From the NCBI GenBank assembly GCA_007618135.1, contig PHFX01000002.1:62001-126000 (forward strand): a DNA stretch of 64,000 bases, given 5' to 3'. Both the position numbers and the translations under genes were made by a program. The number at the start of each line of letters is the position of its first letter. The first letter of the stretch is position 1. Under the pieces are notes generated by a model, which had not been told where the DNA came from, did not search any database, and saw only the letters and a program-made list of their open reading frames with translations. This DNA is from Candidatus Brocadia sp. WS118 (GTDB lineage: Bacteria > Planctomycetota > Brocadiia > Brocadiales > Brocadiaceae). Shown here one piece after another: positions 28,023 to 64,000 of this stretch.

Positions 28023-31000
28023 ATGAATTCAGACCTGACCTTCATTACCAACGAAGAAAACAGAAATCTTATAGAAAGATTCAGGGTACTTATTCAAGAC
28101 ACCCGATTTTTCGATGTGCTCGTTGGTTATTTCTATACCAGCGGGTTTCATGCCATTTACAAATCCCTTGAAAATACCGAAAAAATAAGGATTTTAGTTG
28201 GAATAAGCACAAACAAACAGGCAATAGAACTCATTCAAAAGGCAAAAACTAATCACCAATCAACACTTCCGTATTCCCACGCCGAGGTAAAAGCACAATT
28301 TGAACAGTCTGTTGCTGAAGAAGTAGAAGAATCGGAGGATAGGCCCGAAGTTGAAGGAGGCATCCTTAAGTTTATTGAATGGCTGAAAAACAGAAAACTA
28401 GAAGTCAGGGCTTATCCAACCGAAAATATTCACGCAAAGCTTTACATTATGACCTTTGTTGCAGGTGACAGGGATGTCGGAAGGGTCATTACCGGATCAA
28501 GCAACTTCACTCAATCGGGTCTCATCGATAACTTTGAGTTTAATGTTGAGTTAAAAAACAGGGCTGATTATGAGTTTGCATTGCAAAAATTCAATGAACT
28601 GTGGAAAGACGCAGTTGATGTACGAGAAAAGTACATTGATACCATTCAGATAAGAACATGGCTGAATAATACTATTACTCCGTATGAATTGTATCTAAAA
28701 TTTTTATATGAGTATTTCAAGGATGAACTCCGTCAAACCGACGAAGTGTTTTTGAAATATCTTCCCGAAAAATTTAAAAAACTGGAATATCAGGAGCAGG
28801 CAGTCTTAAACGCACGAAAAATACTTCTTGAATACGGCGGAGTCTTTATCTCTGATGTTGTAGGGTTAGGCAAGACATACATATCGGCAATGCTGGCAGG
28901 TCAGCTTGACGGCAGAACCCTTGTCATTGCCCCACCTGTACTGATTGAAAGATCAAATCCTGGTTCCTGGACTAACGTGTTTTCTGATTTCAGGGTGCCG
29001 GCCGACTTTGAATCACTCGGCAAAATGGACGACCTTATTGACAGAGGGACAGAGAAATACAAGAACATTATCATTGATGAGGCGCACCGTTTTAGAACTG
29101 AAACAACGGTCACTTATGAGAAATTGGCAGAAATCTGCCGTGGCAAAAGGATTGTTCTTGTAACGGCAACTCCCTATAACAATGCGCCAAAAGATATTCT
29201 AAGCCTTCTAAAACTATTTCAGAAGGCCAGAAAAAGCACTATCCCAAACCTGCCGGACCTGGAAGGTTTCTTTCATGGCCTGGATAGAAAGTTGAAAAAA
29301 CTGGACAGGCAGAAAGATTATGCCAAATACATAAACATGGCAAAAGAAAATGCGCGGGAACTTCGTGAAAAGGTCCTTAAATATCTCATGGTGCGCCGCA
29401 CCCGAACAGAGATTGAAAGGTACTTTTCCAACGATATAAAGAGCCAAAACCTCAAATTCCCCAATGTTGAAAAACCAGTCCCTCTCTTTTATGAACTCAA
29501 TGATAGGGAAAATGAAGTATTCAACAAAACCATAGAATTGATAGCAAAGGAATTCAAATACGCCCGTTATATGCCCATGCTTTATTATGAAGGTGAAGTT
29601 GACCAGCTTGAACAGCAGTCACAGAGAAACATGGCTAAGTTTATGAAAATCCTGCTGGTGAAGCGTCTCGAAAGCAGTTTCTTTGCATTTAAAAATTCGG
29701 TGGATAGATTTCTGCGCTCATACAAGATGTTTATAAAAGAGCTTGATAACGGAAATGTTTATGTAAGTAAAAAACACTCCAATAAAATATTTGAACTGCT
29801 CGAGAGCGATGACGACGAAGCCGTCCAGCGACTGATAGACGAAGGCAAGGCGGAAAGATACGCAAGTAATGAATTTAGAGAAGGCTTCAGAGATGACTTA
29901 CAGCACGACCATGACATCCTCCTTGAGATAAAAAAACTATGGCATTACGTTAACCGCGACCCGAAGCTTTTAAAGTTTTTAGGGGAATTATCAAAAAATC
30001 CGGTTTTACAAGAGAATCATCTGATTATCTTTACAGAATCGAAAGAAACCGCAAACTATCTGTTCAAAAATATAAACCAACAATATCTAGATAAGGTGCT
30101 GTGTTTTACTGGTGATTCAGGTGAGGCAACGCGTGACAAGGTCATTGAGAATTTTGACGCCAGGGCGCGTCACCCTAAAGAAGATTACCGGATACTGATC
30201 TCTACGGAAGTACTGGCTGAAGGCGTTAACCTGCACCGCTCAAATACGGTGATAAATTATGATATCCCCTGGAATCCTACCCGCATGATGCAGCGGGTAG
30301 GACGTGTCAACCGTGTAGACACAGCATTTGACACGATTCATACCTTTAATTTTTTCCCGACCAAACAATCAAATGACCAGATAAAACTGAAAGAAGCAGC
30401 AGAAGCGAAAATCAATGCCTTTTTAACCCTGCTCGGTGGGGACGCAGAACTTTTGACTGAAGGTGAACCCATCGGTTCGCATGAACTCTTTAATCGGCTG
30501 ATTTCCAAACAAACACTGGAAGGCGAGGAAGAATCTGGGGAGAGTGAATTGAAATACCTCCAGGTTATAAAAGGGATTCGCGATAAAGACCCCAACCTTT
30601 TTGAAAGGATAAAACACCTCCCCAAAAAGGCGCGCACCACCAAGGTAACTCAAGTTTCCAGCTTGAGATCGATTAATAAAAATCACAAGCAGGATGCTTG
30701 TGATACCTTGATTACCTATTTCAGACGGGGGAAATTGCAGAAATTTTTTAAAGCAGAATACAATAGTGTGGCTGAAGAATTGGATTTTTTGACTGCGGCA
30801 AAACTACTGGAGAGTAATCCTGATGAAACGAAGGAAAAACTACCAGAACAATTTTATGAGTTGCTGGATAAGAACAAAGAGGCATTTATCTTAGCGACCA
30901 CGGAAGAAATGCCGCATCACGGGCAAAGGAGCGGGCGTGACAGTGCTGCAAATATCCTGAGAATATTAAAGGCAACCCTGAAGAACACCCAAAAACTGAC

Positions 31001-31256
31001 AGAAGACCAGGAACGATACCTGAAAAAAGTCCTTGCTCAGCTTGAGGAAGGCGGACTGCCCAAACAGACGGCAACCCATGCACTGAAAGCGCTCAATGCG
31101 CTTAAGAATGAAATCATTAACCCGCTCAAGGTGCTGGCAATGCTTCAGACCCACATTCCGGCGAGACTATTGGAAGAACATTATGCTGAACAAAACCCGG
31201 CGGTGGTTGGCAAACGGGAAGTGATACTCTCATTATATTTAATGGCAAAACCCTGA
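28023..31256 (+). CDS. PLD-nuclease/SNF2-type helicase of a restriction-like system
   Basis: 1077 aa. Residues about 1-195 are a phospholipase-D-like nuclease domain with ENIHAKLYIM and GSSNFTQSG (HxK...GSxN). An SF2 motor follows: VVGLGKTYISAML near residue 282, IIIDEAHRFR near 350, LVTATPYNN, then the second lobe with STEVLAEGVNLH and QRVGRVNRV near 757. A QVSSL..HKQDACDT insert at residues 875-895 is a translated palindrome. The gene precedes an adenine methyltransferase, so a DNA-degrading, methylation-guided defence role is likely. Its stop codon lies inside the palindrome AACCCTGACAGGGTT. I could not assign it to DISARM or BREX, since drmA/B and pglZ are absent. Confidence 0.82.
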   Translation: MNSDLTFITNEENRNLIERFRVLIQDTRFFDVLVGYFYTSGFHAIYKSLENTEKIRILVGISTNKQAIELIQKAKTNHQSTLPYSHAEVKAQFEQSVAEEVEESEDRPEVEGGILKFIEWLKNRKLEVRAYPTENIHAKLYIMTFVAGDRDVGRVITGSSNFTQSGLIDNFEFNVELKNRADYEFALQKFNELWKDAVDVREKYIDTIQIRTWLNNTITPYELYLKFLYEYFKDELRQTDEVFLKYLPEKFKKLEYQEQAVLNARKILLEYGGVFISDVVGLGKTYISAMLAGQLDGRTLVIAPPVLIERSNPGSWTNVFSDFRVPADFESLGKMDDLIDRGTEKYKNIIIDEAHRFRTETTVTYEKLAEICRGKRIVLVTATPYNNAPKDILSLLKLFQKARKSTIPNLPDLEGFFHGLDRKLKKLDRQKDYAKYINMAKENARELREKVLKYLMVRRTRTEIERYFSNDIKSQNLKFPNVEKPVPLFYELNDRENEVFNKTIELIAKEFKYARYMPMLYYEGEVDQLEQQSQRNMAKFMKILLVKRLESSFFAFKNSVDRFLRSYKMFIKELDNGNVYVSKKHSNKIFELLESDDDEAVQRLIDEGKAERYASNEFREGFRDDLQHDHDILLEIKKLWHYVNRDPKLLKFLGELSKNPVLQENHLIIFTESKETANYLFKNINQQYLDKVLCFTGDSGEATRDKVIENFDARARHPKEDYRILISTEVLAEGVNLHRSNTVINYDIPWNPTRMMQRVGRVNRVDTAFDTIHTFNFFPTKQSNDQIKLKEAAEAKINAFLTLLGGDAELLTEGEPIGSHELFNRLISKQTLEGEEESGESELKYLQVIKGIRDKDPNLFERIKHLPKKARTTKVTQVSSLRSINKNHKQDACDTLITYFRRGKLQKFFKAEYNSVAEELDFLTAAKLLESNPDETKEKLPEQFYELLDKNKEAFILATTEEMPHHGQRSGRDSAANILRILKATLKNTQKLTEDQERYLKKVLAQLEEGGLPKQTATHALKALNALKNEIINPLKVLAMLQTHIPARLLEEHYAEQNPAVVGKREVILSLYLMAKP
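30645..30706 (+). repeat. Translated REP pair, copy A (in helicase)
   Basis: 62 bp, GTAACTCAAGTTTCC to GCTTGTGATAC. Hairpin one is CTCAAG..CTTGAG and hairpin two is TCACAAGC-AGGAT-GCTTGTGA. It is read as VTQVSSL, RSINKN and HKQDACDT, residues 875-895 of the helicase. Confidence 0.9.
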
Positions 31257-31263: not shown

Positions 31264-31608
31264 GGGTTGCCTGGAGGAAGGCAAAAGTATTAAATAACCA
31301 TTATCTAACGAAGAAAAATGATAGCGCAGCAAGGCCGCAACCAAGTCCCCTCTAGCAAGAGGGGATTTAGGGGTGTGTTTAAAAACTTACAAAAAAAGGA
31401 TGTTTTTACACGGGAATACTATACTGCAGCAAAGCCGCACCCAAATCCCTCCTATCAAGGGGGATGAAGGGCATAGGTGTTAAGTTAAACGGTTTTCTGG
31501 TGGCATGGACAAACCCCGTTTGTCCATGTTTGCCCCATGTGACTTACAACAGGATGAAAACAATCGGAAATGTGACGGATAGTTGTCCCCTGTTGGCATC
31601 TTCTTGTT

Positions 31609-31829: not shown

Positions 31830-31999
31830 ATGGCGGGTGCAGCACGCATAAGGGGTTGCCGGTGATAGTTGTTCCTTGACTTAACACGTATGGTGTGAAG
31901 GGGGTGTAAAAAACTTCCGAAAAAAGAAAGATTTTACACGGCAATACTATAGCGCTGGTTGTGATGACATTTCAGATGATCTAATATTGGAGTAATATT

Positions 32000-32032
32000 A
32001 ACCCTGACAGGGTTTAAAACCCTGTCAGGGTT
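32000..32032. repeat. Near-perfect palindrome just upstream of the methyltransferase start
   Basis: AACCCTGACAGGGTTT, a 2-nt centre, then AACCCTGTCAGGGTT. It ends 9 nt before the ATG at 32042 and takes the place where a Shine-Dalgarno would be expected. In RNA it would form a ~15-bp stem or two small hairpins that could control translation. This is inference. Confidence 0.7.
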
Positions 32033-32041
32033 AAAAATGCT

Positions 32042-35000
32042 ATGGATAAACAACAGGCACGAAACCTTATTGAAGAAACCTTCGAAAAACCTTTTGATAA
32101 GGGCAGGTTTTCTGGTTTTATCAAAAACCTCTTAACCCGTACTGAAGAAGCTTCTTTTACTTATCAGGGGCAATTCATTCCTGAAGCTTACAGACAATAT
32201 ATCAGCACACTTGAAAGAATAGGCAAATTCAATGATGGTGAAAACAGAATTGACATTCTTGTCATTAAACTCCAGAAAGAGACCTCCCTCGAACGCGCCC
32301 GCACTATGCAGCGCAACTTTGTCGCATGGTATCTGAATGGCAGCCGTGGCGGTGAAATGAAGGACGCTGCGCTGGTAGCCTTTGTATCCCCTGATGTGTC
32401 GGACTGGCGTTTTTCATTGGTGAAGATGGACTATAAGTTTGAACAAACTAAAACCGGCAAAACAAAGGTAAAAGAAGAGTTTACGCCTGCACGGCGCTGG
32501 TCATTTCTGGTCGGCGCAAACGAAAACAGCCATACCGCCCAGAGCAGACTGGTGGACATACTCGCAAACGATGAACACAGTCCAACCCTTGCAGAGCTGG
32601 AACAGGCATTTGACATTGAAACCGTTACCAAAGAATTCTTCATCAAATACCGTGAGCTTTTTATCCGCACAAAAGAAGAACTGGACAAGATGGTAACTCA
32701 AGCTTCCAGCTTGAGCTTAATTAATACAAACCACAAGCAGGATGCTTGTGATACAACCTCCAGCCTGCAGAATGAATTTAAATCGAAGGGAGTCGATACC
32801 GTAAACTTTGCCAAAAAACTCTTAGGTCAGATTGTCTTTCTCTATTTTTTACAGAAAAAAGGCTGGTTCGGTGTGGGGCGTGATGCCGAATGGGGCACAG
32901 GCTCCAAACACTTTCTGCGCGAGCTTTTTGGAAAAAAGCACGGCGACTATAAAAATTTCTTCAATGACATTCTGGAACCGCTCTTTTACGAAGCCCTGCG
33001 TATAGACCGCAGCCATGCTGATGACTATTACAGCCGATTTAACTGCAAAATCCCCTTCTTAAACGGTGGTCTCTTTGATCCCATTGGCAGCAATGGCGGA
33101 TACAACTGGGTGCATGCCGATATTTGTCTGCCGGACAGACTCTTCTCTAATAAAAATAGGACAAAAGAAGGCGATGATGGTGATGGCATTTTGGATATTT
33201 TTGACCGCTACAACTTTACTGTCAGGGAAGACGAGCCGCTGGAAAAGGAAGTAGCCATTGACCCTGAACTCCTGGGCAAGGCGTATGAAAAGTTTAATGC
33301 CATCCGTCCTGACAACTTTGAGGAATATAAAAAGGCGTTAAAGAGCGGGAAAAAAGGGGAAGAAAGCAAATTCAACAAGCAATACGGCGTCTATTACACG
33401 CCCCGTGAGATTGTCCACTATATGTGCCAGCAGAGCCTGATCAATTACCTGCACACAGTAATTCAAGCTTCCAGCTTGAGATCAATTAATAAAAATCACA
33501 AGCAGGATGCTTGTGATACCGCTTCCAGCTTAAACTCACTCGAAAACATTTATTATGACATAAACGAAACTGTCGCTATAAGGCGGAGAAATCTCCCCCA
33601 TTGGGATCAAGATGGGAAAGCCTATTTTGTAACTTTTAGATTATACGATTCCATTCCAAAAGAAGCTGCTGAAAATATCAGACAGGAAAGACAACAATGG
33701 TTTGAAAGAAATAAGATTACAGACACCTCTCAGTTAGAAAAACTATCCCGTGAAAACCAAATGGAATATTACCGTCTTTTTTCAAGAAGATACGATGAAC
33801 TTTTGGATAGCGGGCATGGCGCTTGTATATTGGCAGATTCAGAGTGTAAAAAAATTGTCGAGGAGGCATTGAATCATTTCAATAATGAAAGATACTATTT
33901 GGATAATTATGTGGTTATGCCGAACCATGTTCATGCTATTGTTATTCCTAAAAAAGGGTATGATTTGTCAAAGATTTTACATTCGTGGAAATCATTTACT
34001 GCAAATGCAATCAATAAATTATTGCATAGTGAAGGCGAGTTGTGGATGCATGAATCGTTTGATCATATTATACGGAGTCCTGAACAATTAGAAAGAATTA
34101 GAAAATACATAGAAGACAACCCCAAAGTAACTCAGATATTCAAAGTAACTCAAGCTTCCAGCTTGAGAGAGAAAGATCACAAGCAGGATGCTTGTGATAC
34201 TATAAGCAAAGAAGACGTCGAGACCCTGATACACCTTGGCGAGCAGGTTAGCGAAAATGAAGAAATAGCATTGATCAAAAAACAAAAAATCCTGGAGGGC
34301 AAGCAGAAGACTTCGGATTACAAATTAAAACTGCCCGAAAGCATCCGCATGAATGCCGTATTGATCGACCAGAAACTGGCCGACATCACCGTCTGCGACC
34401 CGGCGGTAGGTTCGGGCGCTTTTCCCGTGGGCATGATGAGCGAAATTGTAAAGGCGAGAAGTGTGCTGACGAATTTTATCGTAAATCAAGCTTCTAAAGT
34501 AACTCAAGCTTCCAGCTTGAGCATAATAAAAACAAACCACAAGCAAGATGCTTGTGATACGCCAAGAACAACCTACGACTTCAAACGCCACTGCATTGAA
34601 AAATCCCTTTACGGTGTGGACATTGACCCCGGTGCTGTGGAAATTGCAAAACTCAGACTTTGGCTATCGCTTGTTGTAGATGAAGAAGATATTAAACAGA
34701 TTGAACCTTTGCCGAACCTTGATTATAAAATTGTGTGCGGTAATTCATTATTAGGTTTTCCAAGTGGTGTGTTGAAACATTTAGAAACTGAAAAAGAAAT
34801 CGAGAAGTTGAAAAAATTATATTTTGGAGCATTTGATGTAAAGGAAAAAAGGGAACTAAAAGCCAAGATAGACGAAAACTTCAAGAAATTGGTCAAAGAA
34901 GCACAACAATACTCAGATAAAGTTGGAGATGTTACATTTGACTTTAAAGTCTACTTTTCCGAGGTGTTTCATCATAAAGGTGGGTTTGATGTGGTGATAG

Positions 35001-36121
35001 CAAATCCGCCGTATGGTATAAGTATAACAAAAAAAGAAAATCCGCAAATAGCAAATCAGTATAAAATTATTCTTAAAGGAGAAATAGAGACATACATTCT
35101 TTTTTACTTCAAAGGATTATGTTTACTTCAAAGGAATGGGTACTTGTCTTATATTACACCTGATAGCTGGTTCACCAATAGAGGAGCGAGCCTGTTTAGA
35201 GAATGGTTGACCAAAAATCATTCGATTATTGATGTCTTTGATTGGTACAAACCTTTCGAGGAGGCAAAAGATACACGAGTACATACAGTTCTCTTGGGTA
35301 TTTCTAAAAACAACTTACATATCAAAGTTAAACAAGTGCTCCCATCTAATCCAAAAATAATTTATCGCAATTATGAAATTCCACATTCCATTATTTCAGG
35401 GTTTAAAAAAAGCGAATGGCGGTTTTATCAGACTGATGTTGAACGAAGAATTTTTAACAAAATGGAAGGAATTTCTCAGCCACTTGAAAAGCTTTACTAT
35501 ATAAAATACGGATTGAGAACAGGAAATAACAGTGAATATATTACAGAAAAAGAAACGAAATATCCTCTAATTGCTGGTGCTGATATAGCATCCCTTTACG
35601 AAGTGAAATGGAAACCTAAATATTTGAAAAAAACGGAAGGCTTGCCGGAAGGATATTTTAAAGAGTATTTTTCTGATAAAAAAATTATTATACAGTATGT
35701 AAGGACAAACAGTCTTGAGATTGATGCTCGTTGGCTTGAATCTGCTTACATTGAAGGGAAATATGTTCCATTAAATTCTTTAAGCTATATTTATCAAAAA
35801 AGTGCTGATCATGATTTAAAGTATCTTTTAGGTGTCCTCAATTCATTTTTAATGAATCGCTATTATCGGGCTTACTATACAGATGTTAATGTAAAGCCTA
35901 CATATTTAGCGCAATTGCCAATACCAACAAAGAACGTTAAAACTCAAAGAGATATTAGTGCTGTGGTTGACGAGATCCTCTCCCTCACCCAATCCGACGA
36001 CTACTTCGAAAATCCCTCTAAACAAGCCAAAGTAAAGGAGTATGAACACCACATTGACCAGCTTGTTTACAAACTCTATGGTCTGACGGAGGATGAGATT
36101 GCGATAGTGGAGGGGAAATAA
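32042..36121 (+). CDS. Adenine-specific DNA methyltransferase (Eco57I/type IIG-like) carrying four translated REPs and an in-frame RAYT
   Basis: 1359 aa. The N-terminal 217 residues resemble the nuclease/linker part of such proteins. GVYYTPREIVHYMCQQSLIN precedes the methylase fold. Motif I is DPAVGSGAF (D786) and the catalytic motif NPPYG is at N988-G992. The C-terminal half contains target-recognition sequence and ends IDQLVYKLYGLTEDEIAIVEGK. Extra sequence breaks up the fold: REP segments at residues 218-238, 473-493, 702-720 and 820-840, and a complete transposase domain at about 494-701. Without these the protein would be about 1070 aa, closer to the family norm. All inserts fall in linkers between conserved blocks and keep the frame open, so the product may still work. 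There is no clear ribosome-binding site; a palindrome occupies that place. Confidence 0.85.
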   Translation: MDKQQARNLIEETFEKPFDKGRFSGFIKNLLTRTEEASFTYQGQFIPEAYRQYISTLERIGKFNDGENRIDILVIKLQKETSLERARTMQRNFVAWYLNGSRGGEMKDAALVAFVSPDVSDWRFSLVKMDYKFEQTKTGKTKVKEEFTPARRWSFLVGANENSHTAQSRLVDILANDEHSPTLAELEQAFDIETVTKEFFIKYRELFIRTKEELDKMVTQASSLSLINTNHKQDACDTTSSLQNEFKSKGVDTVNFAKKLLGQIVFLYFLQKKGWFGVGRDAEWGTGSKHFLRELFGKKHGDYKNFFNDILEPLFYEALRIDRSHADDYYSRFNCKIPFLNGGLFDPIGSNGGYNWVHADICLPDRLFSNKNRTKEGDDGDGILDIFDRYNFTVREDEPLEKEVAIDPELLGKAYEKFNAIRPDNFEEYKKALKSGKKGEESKFNKQYGVYYTPREIVHYMCQQSLINYLHTVIQASSLRSINKNHKQDACDTASSLNSLENIYYDINETVAIRRRNLPHWDQDGKAYFVTFRLYDSIPKEAAENIRQERQQWFERNKITDTSQLEKLSRENQMEYYRLFSRRYDELLDSGHGACILADSECKKIVEEALNHFNNERYYLDNYVVMPNHVHAIVIPKKGYDLSKILHSWKSFTANAINKLLHSEGELWMHESFDHIIRSPEQLERIRKYIEDNPKVTQIFKVTQASSLREKDHKQDACDTISKEDVETLIHLGEQVSENEEIALIKKQKILEGKQKTSDYKLKLPESIRMNAVLIDQKLADITVCDPAVGSGAFPVGMMSEIVKARSVLTNFIVNQASKVTQASSLSIIKTNHKQDACDTPRTTYDFKRHCIEKSLYGVDIDPGAVEIAKLRLWLSLVVDEEDIKQIEPLPNLDYKIVCGNSLLGFPSGVLKHLETEKEIEKLKKLYFGAFDVKEKRELKAKIDENFKKLVKEAQQYSDKVGDVTFDFKVYFSEVFHHKGGFDVVIANPPYGISITKKENPQIANQYKIILKGEIETYILFYFKGLCLLQRNGYLSYITPDSWFTNRGASLFREWLTKNHSIIDVFDWYKPFEEAKDTRVHTVLLGISKNNLHIKVKQVLPSNPKIIYRNYEIPHSIISGFKKSEWRFYQTDVERRIFNKMEGISQPLEKLYYIKYGLRTGNNSEYITEKETKYPLIAGADIASLYEVKWKPKYLKKTEGLPEGYFKEYFSDKKIIIQYVRTNSLEIDARWLESAYIEGKYVPLNSLSYIYQKSADHDLKYLLGVLNSFLMNRYYRAYYTDVNVKPTYLAQLPIPTKNVKTQRDISAVVDEILSLTQSDDYFENPSKQAKVKEYEHHIDQLVYKLYGLTEDEIAIVEGK
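32693..32754 (+). repeat. Translated REP pair, copy B
   Basis: 62 bp with both hairpins (CTCAAGCTTCCAGCTTGAG; CACAAGCAGGATGCTTGTG). Read as VTQASSL..HKQDACDT, residues 218-238 of the methyltransferase, in an N-terminal linker. A partial echo (TSSLQ) follows. Confidence 0.9.
33458..33519 (+). repeat. Translated REP pair, copy C (left flank of the RAYT)
   Basis: 62 bp, GTAATTCAAGCTTCC to GCTTGTGATAC. Residues 473-493. It follows the conserved QQSLINYLHT block and directly precedes the RAYT domain; a partial head echo GCTTCCAGCTTAAA follows at 33521-33534. Confidence 0.9.
33520..34144 (+). mobile_element. REP-associated tyrosine transposase (RAYT, TnpA_REP) read in frame inside the methyltransferase
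   Basis: About 208 residues. The family start RRRNLPHWDQDGKAYFVTFR is followed by the HUH motif in YVVMPNHVHAIV (N628, H629, V630, H631 of the fusion), then LHSWKSFTANAINKLL and ESFDHIIRSPEQLERIRKYI. These are hallmark blocks of IS200-like RAYTs, which process REP hairpins as single strands. Where many relatives have KSYTA this copy has KSFTA (F652), so the nucleophilic tyrosine may be lost. No independent ATG is evident at its N-terminus and its C-terminus stops at YIEDNPK, perhaps 15-20 residues early. It is flanked by REP copies C and D. Confidence 0.9.
34145..34200 (+). repeat. Translated REP pair, copy D (right flank of the RAYT)
   Basis: 56 bp, 6 bp shorter than the others in the spacer between hairpins, so phase is kept. 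Read as VTQASSL-REKD-HKQDACDT, residues 702-720. An extra head fragment AAAGTAACTCAG lies at 34124-34135. Confidence 0.9.
34499..34560 (+). repeat. Translated REP pair, copy E
   Basis: 62 bp; residues 820-840, between motif I and the YGVDIDPGAVEIAKLRLW block. It is preceded by a partial head GTAAATCAAGCTTC at 34481, giving NQASK before VTQASSL. The second hairpin has AAGAT in place of AGGAT in its loop. Confidence 0.9.
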
Positions 36122-36225
36122 ACAGGTATGATTTATTATGTTTATTGTGACAAAAGGACGAAGATGTACTAAACAACTTGGCATAACAAGAGATGATCAT
36201 CCCTCTTTTGTTGGAGGATTACTTC

Positions 36226-37275
36226 ATGACCGATAATACAGATAGTCCCACGCTTGAATCTGCATATAAATTTGTCCAGGACTGCTTCGCTTCGGCCCCC
36301 ATCATTGTATTGGGGAGTGGTCACTCATGTGCTTTTGATATCCCTGGCATGCCACAACTCACGGACTATATACGTTCTGAAGTTCCCAAAGAAGTAGCAC
36401 CAGCTGACAAACAAACGTGGAAGGTATTTGCGGAAAAGCTCCAGCGTCTATCTCTTGAGGCGGCGCTCCAAGAAACCCAGTTAAGCCAGCAGCTAACTAA
36501 TCTCATAATTTTAAAAACCTGGGATTGCATCTTCCCGGCTGATAGGAAGGTTCTTGAGAACGTTATTAAAAATCTAGACTATTTGCCTCTTTCGCATCTT
36601 TATCGCCACCTTTTCAATAGTACTCACCATCGAATACAATTGATTACTACCAATTACGATTGTCTTGCTGAATACGCTGCTGACGCAGCCGGATATGCAT
36701 GGGCAACCGGCTTCGGATATGGTTATATTGGTAACCGATATAACCATAATCACTCATTAATAATCTCAAAGGGTAGCACGGCTTTTCGGATGGTAGACGT
36801 CTGGAAGGTACACGGGTCCTTAAATTGGTACCGCGCTCCTGATGGGAATACATACTATTTACCTTCCGTTACTGCACCACCTATGGATCATTCTCCTGTT
36901 ATCGTTACGCCTGGAATAGATAAATACAGACGAACACACGAGGAACCATTCAGAACGATAATTGCTGGCGCTGATTCGGCCATGGACACTGGGAGAAGCT
37001 TTTTGTGTATTGGCTACGGCTTCAATGACGAACATATACAGCCAAAACTTTTGGAAAAATGCAGAAAATATCAAAAGACTATCGTGGTACTTGCGAAGGA
37101 GCTTACAGAGGCGGCAAAGAAAGTACTTTTGGACGGTCGTTGCAAGCGTTTTGTTGCTTTTGAACAATGGGGAAGTAGTGGCACACGGATGTTTAATCCA
37201 AATCACCTTGCAGGCATAGAACTGACGGGAATAAATCTCTGGTCTCTTGGAGATCTTCTAGATCGTGTTCTGTAA
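36226..37275 (+). CDS. SIR2-family NADase of a SIR2-HerA defence pair
   Basis: 349 aa from ATG 36226, chosen for the GGAGG at 36213-36217; the frame opens earlier at 36193. SIR2 motifs are IIVLGSGHSCAFDIPG near residue 28, LITTNYDCLAEYA near 142, and KVHGSLNW with the catalytic histidine near 196. The C-terminal FLCIGYGFNDEHIQPKL is typical of SIR2-like defence proteins. In characterised SIR2-HerA systems the SIR2 partner depletes NAD+ or cuts DNA when HerA signals phage. HerA follows after 14 nt. Confidence 0.88.
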   Translation: MTDNTDSPTLESAYKFVQDCFASAPIIVLGSGHSCAFDIPGMPQLTDYIRSEVPKEVAPADKQTWKVFAEKLQRLSLEAALQETQLSQQLTNLIILKTWDCIFPADRKVLENVIKNLDYLPLSHLYRHLFNSTHHRIQLITTNYDCLAEYAADAAGYAWATGFGYGYIGNRYNHNHSLIISKGSTAFRMVDVWKVHGSLNWYRAPDGNTYYLPSVTAPPMDHSPVIVTPGIDKYRRTHEEPFRTIIAGADSAMDTGRSFLCIGYGFNDEHIQPKLLEKCRKYQKTIVVLAKELTEAAKKVLLDGRCKRFVAFEQWGSSGTRMFNPNHLAGIELTGINLWSLGDLLDRVL

Positions 37276-37289
37276 AAGGAGTATTGATT

Positions 37290-39047
37290 ATGGCAATTTT
37301 CAAGTATAAAGATGAAGAAGCCTTGGGAATAGTTCTTTCGGTTGATACGGCAACGGTAATCATAAAAGTTGCTGATCTTGATAAACTCAGAAGAATGCAG
37401 GTTAACCGTCTTGTAGTATTGCAGAGTAGCAAACCAGGACAGCATTTAATAGGGCTCGTCCAGAAAATTACGCGAAGCAGTGTGGAGCAAGAACAAACAG
37501 GCCAGAAGGAAGCAGATGAGGTTGAAATGCCTGCGTTGCCACCGCAGCTCAACCTTGTGCGCGCTTCACTAATAGGCACTTTGATTGACAGAGTTGGTAT
37601 GAAAGAAAATGTTTTCAGACGAACCCTTGAGACGGTTCCAGAAATAGACGCCAAATGCTTTGCCGTTGAGGGAGACGTGCTGACACAGTTTATGCGAGTA
37701 ATCACCAATGTTCCTGGCGAAGGTCAAAAATTGTCTCTTGGACACTACACTTTGGATGAAAATGCCGAGGCATTTCTGAACGGAAACAAATTTTTTCAAC
37801 GACATGCAGTTATTGTGGGAAGTACAGGTTCTGGAAAATCATGGACAACCGCGAGAATACTTGAACAAGCAGCCGCTTTACCTAGCGTGAACTCTTTGGT
37901 TTTTGATATACACGGAGAATACATGCCCCTGACTGGTAATGGTATTAAGCATTATCGCGTTGCAGGTACTGGTGATCTTGGGAATAAAAAAGGACTTGTG
38001 GATGGTATCCTATATCTGCCTTATTGGCTTCTTGATTATGAGGCATTGATTACGATGCTTGTTGATCGTAGCGATCAAAATGCACCAAATCAGGCAATGA
38101 TCATTGCGCGAACCATAGTACAGATGAAAAGAAGCTTTCTTGAAACGAACAGTCAAAAGGAACTGCTCGAAAACTTTACAATAGACAGCCCAGTTCCGTT
38201 TTCTATGGATGCGTTGCTTACAGAACTGAACCGACTAAATTCAGAAATGGTACCTGGAGCAAAAGCAGGTACTGAAAAGCAAGGGGATTTTCACGGGAAA
38301 TTAAGCCGTATGATTGCAAGACTCGAAAATAAGCGGACAGATAGGCGTTTAGGATTCCTTTTTCAGTTGTCTGAAGAAGCTACTCAATTGTCGTGGCTTA
38401 GTGATTTATCAAGAACTTTGTTGGCTGGCACATGCCAGCAAACGGATAAAAAAGGCGGAATTAAGATTATTGATTTTTCAGAAGTACCATCAGATATTCT
38501 TCCATTAATTGTTAGTCTTATTGGGCGTTTGGCGTTTTCTTTGCAACAATGGACTGTACCGGAGAAACGGCATCCAATGGCGCTCTTTTGCGATGAAGCG
38601 CACCTATACATTCCCGAACGTGCGGAAGGAGATGCGGCTAATGAAGTGTCCATCAAAATTTTTGAGAAAATCGCAAAGGAGGGCCGTAAGTACGGTGTCG
38701 GGCTGGTGGTCATAAGTCAGCGTCCATCCGAGGTCAACCATACTGTTCTAAGCCAGTGCAACAATCTCGTGACGATGCGTTTAACGAATGCCGAAGATCA
38801 GTCAGTAATTCGGAGATTGCTGCCGGATAGTCTTGGCGGGTTTAGTGATGTATTGCCGCTTCTGGACACTGGTGAAGCCCTAATAGTTGGAGACGCGAGT
38901 TTACTACCCAGTAGAGTAAGGATACAAGAGCCAAATGCAAAACCGAATAGTGGCACAGTTGACTTTTGGGATAAGTGGTTGGAAAGAGAATACAAAGAGG
39001 GCATCAACGAAGCCGTTAATGCATGGCGAAAGCAAAACCTTAAGTAA
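37290..39047 (+). CDS. HerA-like hexameric ATPase/translocase
   Basis: 585 aa from ATG 37290 (GGAG at 37278-37281). An N-terminal HAS-barrel-like region precedes the RecA/FtsK-type core, with Walker A GSTGSGKSWTTARI near residue 178, Walker B MALFCDEAHLYIP near 430 and the ISQRPSEVNHTVLSQCNN segment (partly RPSEVNHTVL). It partners the SIR2 protein. The two genes alone form the known defence module; nothing else is needed to explain them. Confidence 0.9.
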   Translation: MAIFKYKDEEALGIVLSVDTATVIIKVADLDKLRRMQVNRLVVLQSSKPGQHLIGLVQKITRSSVEQEQTGQKEADEVEMPALPPQLNLVRASLIGTLIDRVGMKENVFRRTLETVPEIDAKCFAVEGDVLTQFMRVITNVPGEGQKLSLGHYTLDENAEAFLNGNKFFQRHAVIVGSTGSGKSWTTARILEQAAALPSVNSLVFDIHGEYMPLTGNGIKHYRVAGTGDLGNKKGLVDGILYLPYWLLDYEALITMLVDRSDQNAPNQAMIIARTIVQMKRSFLETNSQKELLENFTIDSPVPFSMDALLTELNRLNSEMVPGAKAGTEKQGDFHGKLSRMIARLENKRTDRRLGFLFQLSEEATQLSWLSDLSRTLLAGTCQQTDKKGGIKIIDFSEVPSDILPLIVSLIGRLAFSLQQWTVPEKRHPMALFCDEAHLYIPERAEGDAANEVSIKIFEKIAKEGRKYGVGLVVISQRPSEVNHTVLSQCNNLVTMRLTNAEDQSVIRRLLPDSLGGFSDVLPLLDTGEALIVGDASLLPSRVRIQEPNAKPNSGTVDFWDKWLEREYKEGINEAVNAWRKQNLK

Positions 39048-61908: not shown

Positions 61909-64000
61909 ATGTCCAAGATTATCTGTACTGCCGCCATTCGTGGCGCATATAAAATTGTAGATAAGGCTGATAAAAAACTTGCCGATACCATTGCGCAAAA
62001 GGGACGCGATTGTAAGGTGGAGTTTCCTAATACGGCGTATTATTTGCCTATCATTTATTCCATGACGGGCGTTGCCGTGAAAACGCTGGAGGATTGCGAG
62101 TATATCCTGGGAATGGCGCGGAGCATGCTCCCGCCATTGCCGGCAGAAAAACACTGGGTCCCTTACCTTGGGCATACCCTTGATGCCGGGATGGCGACGC
62201 TTTTTGCCGAGGAAGTATATGAGGCCTGTAAATATCTCATTGGGCCTCACCCGGTGGACGGGATTTGGCTGGGCGCTGCTGATGACGTTATCATGCGCGA
62301 ACGTGGCATTGAGTTCGTGGATGGTACCGCTCCGGGATTCGCCGCAATTGTGGGGTGTGCGCCTGATGCAGATACGGCCGTGAAGATTGCCAGGGAACTT
62401 CAGCAAAAGAATCTGTACGTGTTTATGCAGTCAGATAATTTTGGGACATCGTTTGCCGAGCAATTGGCTGAAAAGGGCGTCCAGATGGGGTGGGATACCC
62501 GGCTGGTGCCTTTTGGAAAAGAGACCTCGGCTGCCGTATATTCTCTGGGCTTTGCCAACAGGGCAGCCCTTTCATTTGGAAATGTGCCACCCGGTGAGGC
62601 AAGGAGAAATCTCCTCTATAACAAAAACCGCATCTTTGCATTTGTCATGGCAATAGGAACTGCCGTAACAGATGAACAGTATGCCAACGCTGCGGGCGCT
62701 ATCAATTATGGTTTTCCGACGATTTCAAATATCGACATTCCGGAGATATTACCCACCGGCGTATGCACCTATGAACATGTGGTTTCAAGGGTGCCGGTGG
62801 ACAAGATTGTTGATAAATGCATTGAAGTCCGAGGACTAAAGATTTCTATCCACAAGATGGATATCCCCGTGGCGTACGGTCCGGCCTTCGAAGGTGAGCG
62901 TATCAGAAAAGAGGATATGCAGATTGAGATTGGCGGCCCCGGTGTTCCTGCCTTTGAATATGTGTGTACCAAAGAAATTGACGAGGTTGAGGATGGCAAG
63001 ATACAGGTTATCGGGCCAGACCTGGACGATATTAAGCCAGGTCCAGGTGTGTCGCTTGGTATTATGGTTGAGGTGGCAGGCCGAAAGATGCAGCCTGATT
63101 TTGAGCCAATCTTTGAACGTCAGATGCATCGGTTTCTGGGTGAAGCTCAGGGACTCTTCCACATGGGGCAAAGGGACATCATCCGTCATCGCATCAGTAA
63201 AGAGGCATTTAAGGCAGGCTTCAGAATCAAGCACATAGGCAGTATCATCCACTCGCAGTTCCATAGCAATTTCGGGGCTATTGTTGACAAAGTTCAGGTG
63301 ACCTTTTATACCAAAAGAGAAGATGTGGAGCGGATATTAAAAGACGTGCGCGCCGCTTATGCAGAGCGTGATGCGCGATTAGAGGGTATGACCGATGATT
63401 CGGTAAACATGTTTTACAGTTGCACCCTCTGCCAAAGTTTTGCGCCTACCCATATTTGCGTGGTGACACCGGAACGTTCCGGCCTTTGTGGTTCCGTCAG
63501 TTGGCTGGACGGCAAGGCTGGCTACGAGATCAACCCCACGGGGCCAAATCAGCCGATTGAGCGGGGTAAGGTGGTGAATGAAAATCTGGGACAGTGGGAA
63601 GGCACAAACTCATTTATCTACAATGGTTCAAACCGGTCGCTGGAGAAGGTGAGCCTGTATAGCATTATGACAGACCCGATGACCAGTTGCGGCTGTTTTG
63701 AGTGCATTTCGGCTATGTTGCCCATGACGAATGGGATTATGGTGGTAGACCGCGACTTCACGGAAATGACCCCCTGTGGTATGAAATTTTCCACGCTTGC
63801 CGGAACGGTCGGCGGTGGTTTGCAGACCCCCGGGTTTATGGGGCACAGCAAGTTTTATTTAGGCAGCAGGAAATTTATTTCAGCAGATGGCGGTTTGGGC
63901 CGTGTTGTGTGGATGCCCAAGGCGCTGAAAGAGGAGTTGGCGGAAACGCTTGCCGGAACTGCCCAGGCATTGGGCCTTGAAGATTTTCTCAACAAAATAG
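61909..64000 (+). CDS. acsB: Acetyl-CoA synthase (CO-methylating), 3' end off window
   Basis: 697 codons visible from ATG 61909 (GAGAGGTG upstream); the family is about 730 aa, so only the last ~30 residues are missing. It joins CO, a methyl group from the corrinoid protein and CoA at the A-cluster. A-cluster cysteines are seen in SCTLCQSFAPTHICVVTPER, then GLCGS, and later SCGCFECI. The N-terminal domain (KIICTAAIRGAYKIVDKADK) is the bacterial form that contacts CODH. The product acetyl-CoA would be carboxylated by the PFOR encoded at 13-18 kb. Confidence 0.95.
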   Translation, partial: MSKIICTAAIRGAYKIVDKADKKLADTIAQKGRDCKVEFPNTAYYLPIIYSMTGVAVKTLEDCEYILGMARSMLPPLPAEKHWVPYLGHTLDAGMATLFAEEVYEACKYLIGPHPVDGIWLGAADDVIMRERGIEFVDGTAPGFAAIVGCAPDADTAVKIARELQQKNLYVFMQSDNFGTSFAEQLAEKGVQMGWDTRLVPFGKETSAAVYSLGFANRAALSFGNVPPGEARRNLLYNKNRIFAFVMAIGTAVTDEQYANAAGAINYGFPTISNIDIPEILPTGVCTYEHVVSRVPVDKIVDKCIEVRGLKISIHKMDIPVAYGPAFEGERIRKEDMQIEIGGPGVPAFEYVCTKEIDEVEDGKIQVIGPDLDDIKPGPGVSLGIMVEVAGRKMQPDFEPIFERQMHRFLGEAQGLFHMGQRDIIRHRISKEAFKAGFRIKHIGSIIHSQFHSNFGAIVDKVQVTFYTKREDVERILKDVRAAYAERDARLEGMTDDSVNMFYSCTLCQSFAPTHICVVTPERSGLCGSVSWLDGKAGYEINPTGPNQPIERGKVVNENLGQWEGTNSFIYNGSNRSLEKVSLYSIMTDPMTSCGCFECISAMLPMTNGIMVVDRDFTEMTPCGMKFSTLAGTVGGGLQTPGFMGHSKFYLGSRKFISADGGLGRVVWMPKALKEELAETLAGTAQALGLEDFLNKI

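Follow-up and report, generated by a model that had tools for sequence, protein, structure and literature searches.

A mobile element would normally be expected to break the gene that it enters, and the locus described here raises the question of how a whole transposase can be read in frame within a restriction-type gene. The window, by which we mean the entire 64,000-nucleotide stretch analysed (positions 62,001 to 126,000 of contig PHFX01000002.1, Candidatus Brocadia sp. WS118), had been given a first-pass annotation in which an uninterrupted frame of 1359 codons carried a REP-associated tyrosine transposase (RAYT) at about residues 494–701, with methyltransferase blocks on both sides. We found the frame open and the RAYT at about residues 496–699, preceded by the FYTPREIV segment and followed by DPAVGSGAF. 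The genes concerned, numbered from the first letter of the window, were as follows.

32042–36121, + strand: type IIG restriction-methyltransferase ORF (1359 aa) carrying the in-frame RAYT (Pfam and PADLOC)
28023–31256, + strand: PLD/SNF2 helicase gene of the same operon (Pfam and PADLOC)

The best PADLOC profile for the longer ORF, which runs without a stop, was the type IIG profile PDLC03596 (length 1148; 1103 bits), and Pfam placed Y1_Tnp at residues 601–693, Eco57I methylase at 855–1068 and TaqI_C at 1175–1294. The motifs DPAVGSGAF (motif I) and NPPY were both present. The ORF combines a fused N-terminal part, N6-adenine methylase motifs and a target recognition domain (Eco57I and TaqI_C domains), and on this domain content it is a type IIG restriction-methyltransferase, its nuclease activity being predicted. 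Genes for a SIR2-like protein and a HerA helicase (36193–39047) lie directly 3′ of it, indicating that the operon belongs to a defence island. The spacer between helicase and methylase contains a 43-nt direct repeat (86%; 31381–31423 and 31909–31951), and a 25-nt palindrome lies just upstream of the methylase start (at 31991–32041). The C-terminal part of the methylase (34577–36118) is about 28–46% identical to relatives whose N-terminal part is 91–97% identical, which looks like an exchange of the target recognition region.

Within this ORF, the transposase comprised the following elements.

33530–34144, + strand: RAYT domain, lacking an ATG/GTG start or stop of its own (Pfam, profile alignment and predicted fold)
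33926–33934, + strand: HUH motif His-Val-His, residues 629–631 (motif and alignment)
34106–34108, + strand: catalytic Tyr689 in Y-x3-N-P (by alignment the counterpart of Y115 in 4er8, E. coli TnpA_REP)

The core extends from about residue 512 to about 695, with NLPHW at 517–521. A profile of 79 relatives aligned with E. coli TnpA_REP (4er8) at E 3.8e-6, including the Y-x3-N motif, and the tyrosine matching Y115 lies in KYIEDNP. The structure predicted for the insert by AlphaFold (mean pLDDT 85.8) had 4er8 as its closest fold (Z 13.3); VIA-align matches beyond the Y1 transposases (Thg1 and ribosomal protein S6) were set aside as common ferredoxin-like resemblance and not kinship. Several features of a RAYT/TnpA_REP were found: an HUH motif, one catalytic Tyr (Y-x3-N) within a Y1_Tnp fold, and flanking REP palindromes. 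By motif comparison, NHVH and YIEDNP loosely match the motifs in the signature of subclass 2.4, which comprises NH[IFV]H, W, YIxNNP and a long core (PMC6006769). The occurrence of KSFTA in place of KSYTA had been read as a possible sign of inactivation; this reading was abandoned, as the catalytic Tyr is Y689, which lies elsewhere and is intact along with the HUH motif, and embedded RAYTs are under purifying selection (see below). Judged from its motifs, the window transposase is not obviously dead and may still be active.

The surrounding repeats proved to be more elaborate than the REP copies first reported on either side of the RAYT. Such copies do begin at 33458 and 34145, but the unit is a direct repeat of inverted REP pairs (REPIN–RAYT–REPIN) and not a RAYT between single REPs. 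Three solo REPINs, each read in frame, accompany it in the operon.

33458–34200, + strand: inserted cassette REPIN–RAYT–REPIN, in frame (REPIN starts 687 nt, or 229 codons, apart; compared with ortholog L195, which has no RAYT)
33458–33519, + strand: left REPIN (two inverted REPs), encoding VIQASSLRSINKNHKQDACD(T) (repeat search, frame check and folding)
34145–34200, + strand: right REPIN, encoding VTQASSLREKDHKQDACD(T) (repeat search, frame check and folding)
32693–32754, + strand: solo in-frame REPIN in the same methylase gene (repeat search and frame check)
34499–34560, + strand: solo in-frame REPIN, at a position holding a RAYT in the G010 ortholog (L051) (repeat search and ortholog comparison)
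30645–30706, + strand: solo in-frame REPIN in the neighbouring helicase gene, at a position holding a RAYT in L063 (repeat search and ortholog comparison)

Both flanking REPINs fold as double hairpins (z −6.7 and −7.5), outscoring all 200 shuffles. Each of the five REPINs begins in codon phase 0, and of the six frames only +0 stays open throughout the set. The stretch from the left REPIN to the RAYT core lacks ATG and GTG and has a single TTG, inside the REP; the RAYT also has no stop codon of its own, so it does not qualify as a stand-alone gene with start and stop. Given a REPIN frame that never closes, an insert length that preserves the reading frame and a RAYT with neither start nor stop, a single unspliced polypeptide of about 155 kDa is to be expected, and the transposase can apparently be produced solely as an internal section of it. 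In an AlphaFold model of a 704-residue fusion, based on a thin alignment, the RAYT formed a separate domain (pLDDT mostly 87–98), with the REP-encoded flanks as low-confidence linkers.

Dispersal of cognate REPs throughout the genome is usual for RAYTs. In the 5.04 Mb assembly, no such dispersal was found: the exact REP core occurred eight times, always within this operon, and a control pattern did not occur at all. REPtrons whose genomes hold no REP family have been described as well (PMC3733652). The GTAG foot (GT[AG]G) of GTAG-superfamily REPs was absent from the window hairpins, whose feet are GTAA and GTAT.

We then examined whether the RAYT is an insert or an integral domain of the methylase. 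Within the methylase, the cassette follows the FYTPREIV helix region and precedes motif I. The clearest comparison was with the G016 ortholog (1105 aa; 83% identity over 1101 aligned residues), which has neither RAYT nor REPs. In G002, which is 97% identical beside the site, a short unrelated repeat alone occupies the position, and the RAYT is likewise missing from seven other relatives (in one, G208, as read from the spacing of its matches on either side). The G016 ortholog and these eight further relatives identify the RAYT as an insert, as the first-pass annotation had proposed, and rule out the integral-domain hypothesis; no REP-less homologue retaining the RAYT as an integral domain was seen among the orthologs compared. 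The cassette replaces a 40-aa linker of G016 and therefore did not arise by clean insertion into that exact sequence.

Comparison of the solo REPINs with orthologs suggested how such cassettes may come and go. In G010, another in-frame repeat occupies the site of the window cassette, and a RAYT stands at the position of the window's solo REPIN at 34499. Similarly, L063 (a Nitrospirae MAG) has a RAYT at the helicase position of the window's solo REPIN, as does L061 at the equivalent point. Solo in-frame REPINs at RAYT positions suggest loss by REPIN–REPIN recombination; the same pattern would arise if a RAYT inserted into a REPIN already in place. The methylase and helicase linkers of L193, L194, L196 and L201 contain unrelated in-frame repeats (PNPDRVPNPVRV, TLTGL-TLSGL and TQASLSACGDAQAG), from which it follows that several repeat families share these sites. 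The record of L061 is labelled Pacearchaeota UBA284, yet it contains a bacterial R-M operon with the helicase RAYT, possibly owing to a binning error.

The window case is not isolated and belongs to a recurrent class. In the same genome, RAYTs 40–46% identical to the window insert are read in frame inside pglX and a DUF1156 methylase gene. A genome-contig search, a phylum search and the relatives together yielded 107 usable rows for RAYTs, of which about 75, from several phyla, are embedded in frame inside some 20 host families; as the query was built from embedded copies, these counts are not a census. At the same methylase site, RAYTs were found in L062, L064 and L085, and seven further loci had one in other Eco57I methylases. 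Hosts identified by curated HMMs, R-M and BREX proteins among them, included HsdR, MmeI-like enzymes, PglX, DUF1156, XseA, ValRS, AlaRS, PriA, CCA tRNA nucleotidyltransferase, PurH, CarB, FabZ, a salicylyl-CoA hydroxylase, and radical SAM and dehydrogenase proteins. Searches of viral contigs found no RAYT relatives, and those of plasmids only two weak ones.

Embedded copies share several properties. HUH is kept in all 75, and an ATG within 25 codons upstream was present in 16 of 75, versus 22 of 32 stand-alone RAYTs. Flanking direct repeats were spaced by a multiple of three at 36 of 45 embedded loci versus 12 of 24 others, a difference that arises partly because the frame is open. An assembly chimera might be suspected, since the window genome is a 299-contig assembly. 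However, this genome alone holds three different fusions, and equivalent ones occur in long contigs, among them G015 (1.9 Mb), and in isolates (Flavobacterium branchiophilum NBRC 15030, Dolichospermum LEGE 00240, Chloroflexales ZM16-3 and Pontiella sulfatireligans). A chimera is thereby largely refuted for the class, and we regard it as the least credible account of the window fusion.

Hardly more credible is an intein-like process in which the REP-encoded peptides are sites of protein splicing or proteolysis that free the RAYT. It would explain tolerance of the insert in CarB, AlaRS and other essential proteins, and the linkers are predicted to be flexible. Against this, the Pfam scan of the 1359-codon ORF named no intein splicing domain, the residues abutting the insert differ between hosts, and the REP-encoded peptides are completely different from one host to another (VTQASSL, STASIP, AGVPPA and VRNTDLESVRPA).

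Some inserts lie in genes for essential enzymes. In G105 and G125, the sole alaS detected carries a RAYT, with scores of 774 and 803 bits (cut-off, 457). Relatives from the same family, some of them members of G174's genus, have a 20-residue stretch at the site, versus 259–274 residues in RAYT-bearing copies; in G174 itself, 259 aa including the RAYT stand where genomes of its genus have 20 aa. The RAYT-bearing carB was the only carB detected in five of nine genomes, the others showing extra fragments or copies. Most loci come from MAGs, and a further alaS or carB may be missing from such incomplete assemblies. All fabZ carriers have a second, intact fabZ, which, together with broken frames in G029 and G291, means that some inserts are in dispensable or dying genes. 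In the alaS of G252 (L208), a short REP-like peptide, SGAGVPPTQQAP, stands where relatives have nothing or a RAYT, and it is a possible scar or remnant.

The same two broken relatives could suggest that the window gene, too, was already dead and its frame open by chance. We consider this very unlikely, because the host segments compared with G016 have dN/dS of 0.11 and 0.19, 1359 codons run without a stop, the catalytic motifs of both methylase and RAYT parts are intact, and about 75 similar open fusions exist. The host enzyme presumably still functions.

The dN/dS values of embedded RAYTs (0.06–0.22, versus 0.07–0.13 for stand-alone copies) indicate that they, too, are under purifying selection. 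In a quick tree in which 41 of 104 inner branches were weak, the window RAYT grouped with L061, L062 and L063 (support 99), all residing in a helicase or methylase of the same operon type. RAYTs in methylase linkers occupied at least four separate places, with many deep forks weak. RAYTs of carB, fabZ, xseA and others clustered by host gene, which points to long residence and not to frequent movement. In one pair, L049 and L050, nucleotide identity changes at the left REP from about 80–90% in the host gene near the site to about 98% in the cassette. This step marks the cassette as a discrete, recently shared unit, acquired via transposition or recombination.

Selection on the RAYT could also mean that it now serves the restriction system, with the HUH domain binding DNA or nicking it on behalf of the methylase. 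This would explain its recurrence at one linker of several R-M and BREX methylases; there are independent same-site RAYTs in Eco57I methylases as well as inserts in pglX, DUF1156, MmeI-like and HsdR genes. On the other hand, close orthologs manage without the RAYT, unrelated repeats also occupy the same linkers, and the same RAYT group resides in carB, alaS, xseA, priA, purH and fabZ, hosts for which a nicking activity is of no evident benefit. Such a function is possible but not needed, and we consider it unlikely, if less so than a dead gene.

The simplest account is a selfish REPtron that is tolerated in linkers and translated with its host. We hold it to be very probable that the window element is an in-frame REPtron, putatively of RAYT subclass 2.4 (group 4), which persists by occupying permissive linkers, is translated as an unspliced domain and would leave solo in-frame REPINs after its loss. 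A RAYT between two direct-repeat REPINs would have inserted into a permissive surface linker of the type IIG restriction-methyltransferase, and transposase and methyltransferase would be made as one chain of about 155 kDa with flexible REP-encoded linkers. The element would thus parasitise host translation and be retained through the essentiality or mobility of the host gene. Movement may proceed by HUH/Tyr processing of single-stranded REP hairpins and insertion near existing REPs or into tolerant linkers, and recombination between the direct REPINs would leave one in-frame REPIN behind.

We lean, with less assurance, towards a broader conclusion: that widespread translation-parasitic transposons exist, in which RAYTs that have lost their own start and stop persist unspliced in host proteins, including essential ones, and in-frame direct repeats allow precise, frame-preserving loss. 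A whole transposase gene persists under purifying selection in R-M genes and in the sole detected alaS or carB of some genomes, across several phyla. RAYT persistence and movement, and the tolerance of proteins for domains of at least 200 residues, thereby become testable, and recurrent insert sites map naturally permissive points in important enzymes. A 2018 survey excluded RAYT proteins that were longer than expected, treating them as fusions or misannotations (PMC6006769); such proteins may be real.

Finally, we compared the element with known systems. A literature search on in-frame or fused REPtrons and RAYTs, with most subscription papers outside its scope, found in-frame REPs and Rickettsia palindromic elements (RPEs) and no whole in-frame REPtron. 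The range of host families points to in-frame residence as a widespread means of persistence for mobile DNA, and one that is apparently undescribed. RPEs are selfish and lie in frame in many unrelated ORFs (PMC10969869); unlike the window element, they are about 150 bp long and encode no transposase. Intragenic GTAG/CGTC REPs are palindromic and read in frame within functional genes, many for DNA repair or replication (PMC3733652), but they are short repeats only, whereas the window carries a transposase gene in frame and REP feet of GTAA/GTAT. REPtrons (TnpA_REP) of subclass 2.4, or group 4, share the HUH-Tyr transposase, the Y-x-x-N-N-P-like motif, the flanking REPs and the 4er8 fold, and their REPs are known to insert in frame inside their own transposase gene (PMC6006769); the window element differs in lying wholly in frame inside a foreign gene, without its own start or stop. 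Inteins and homing endonuclease genes likewise place a mobile enzyme domain in frame at recurrent sites in essential host proteins, but the window element has a Y1 HUH transposase, showed no splicing domain in Pfam and occupies permissive linkers, not active sites.
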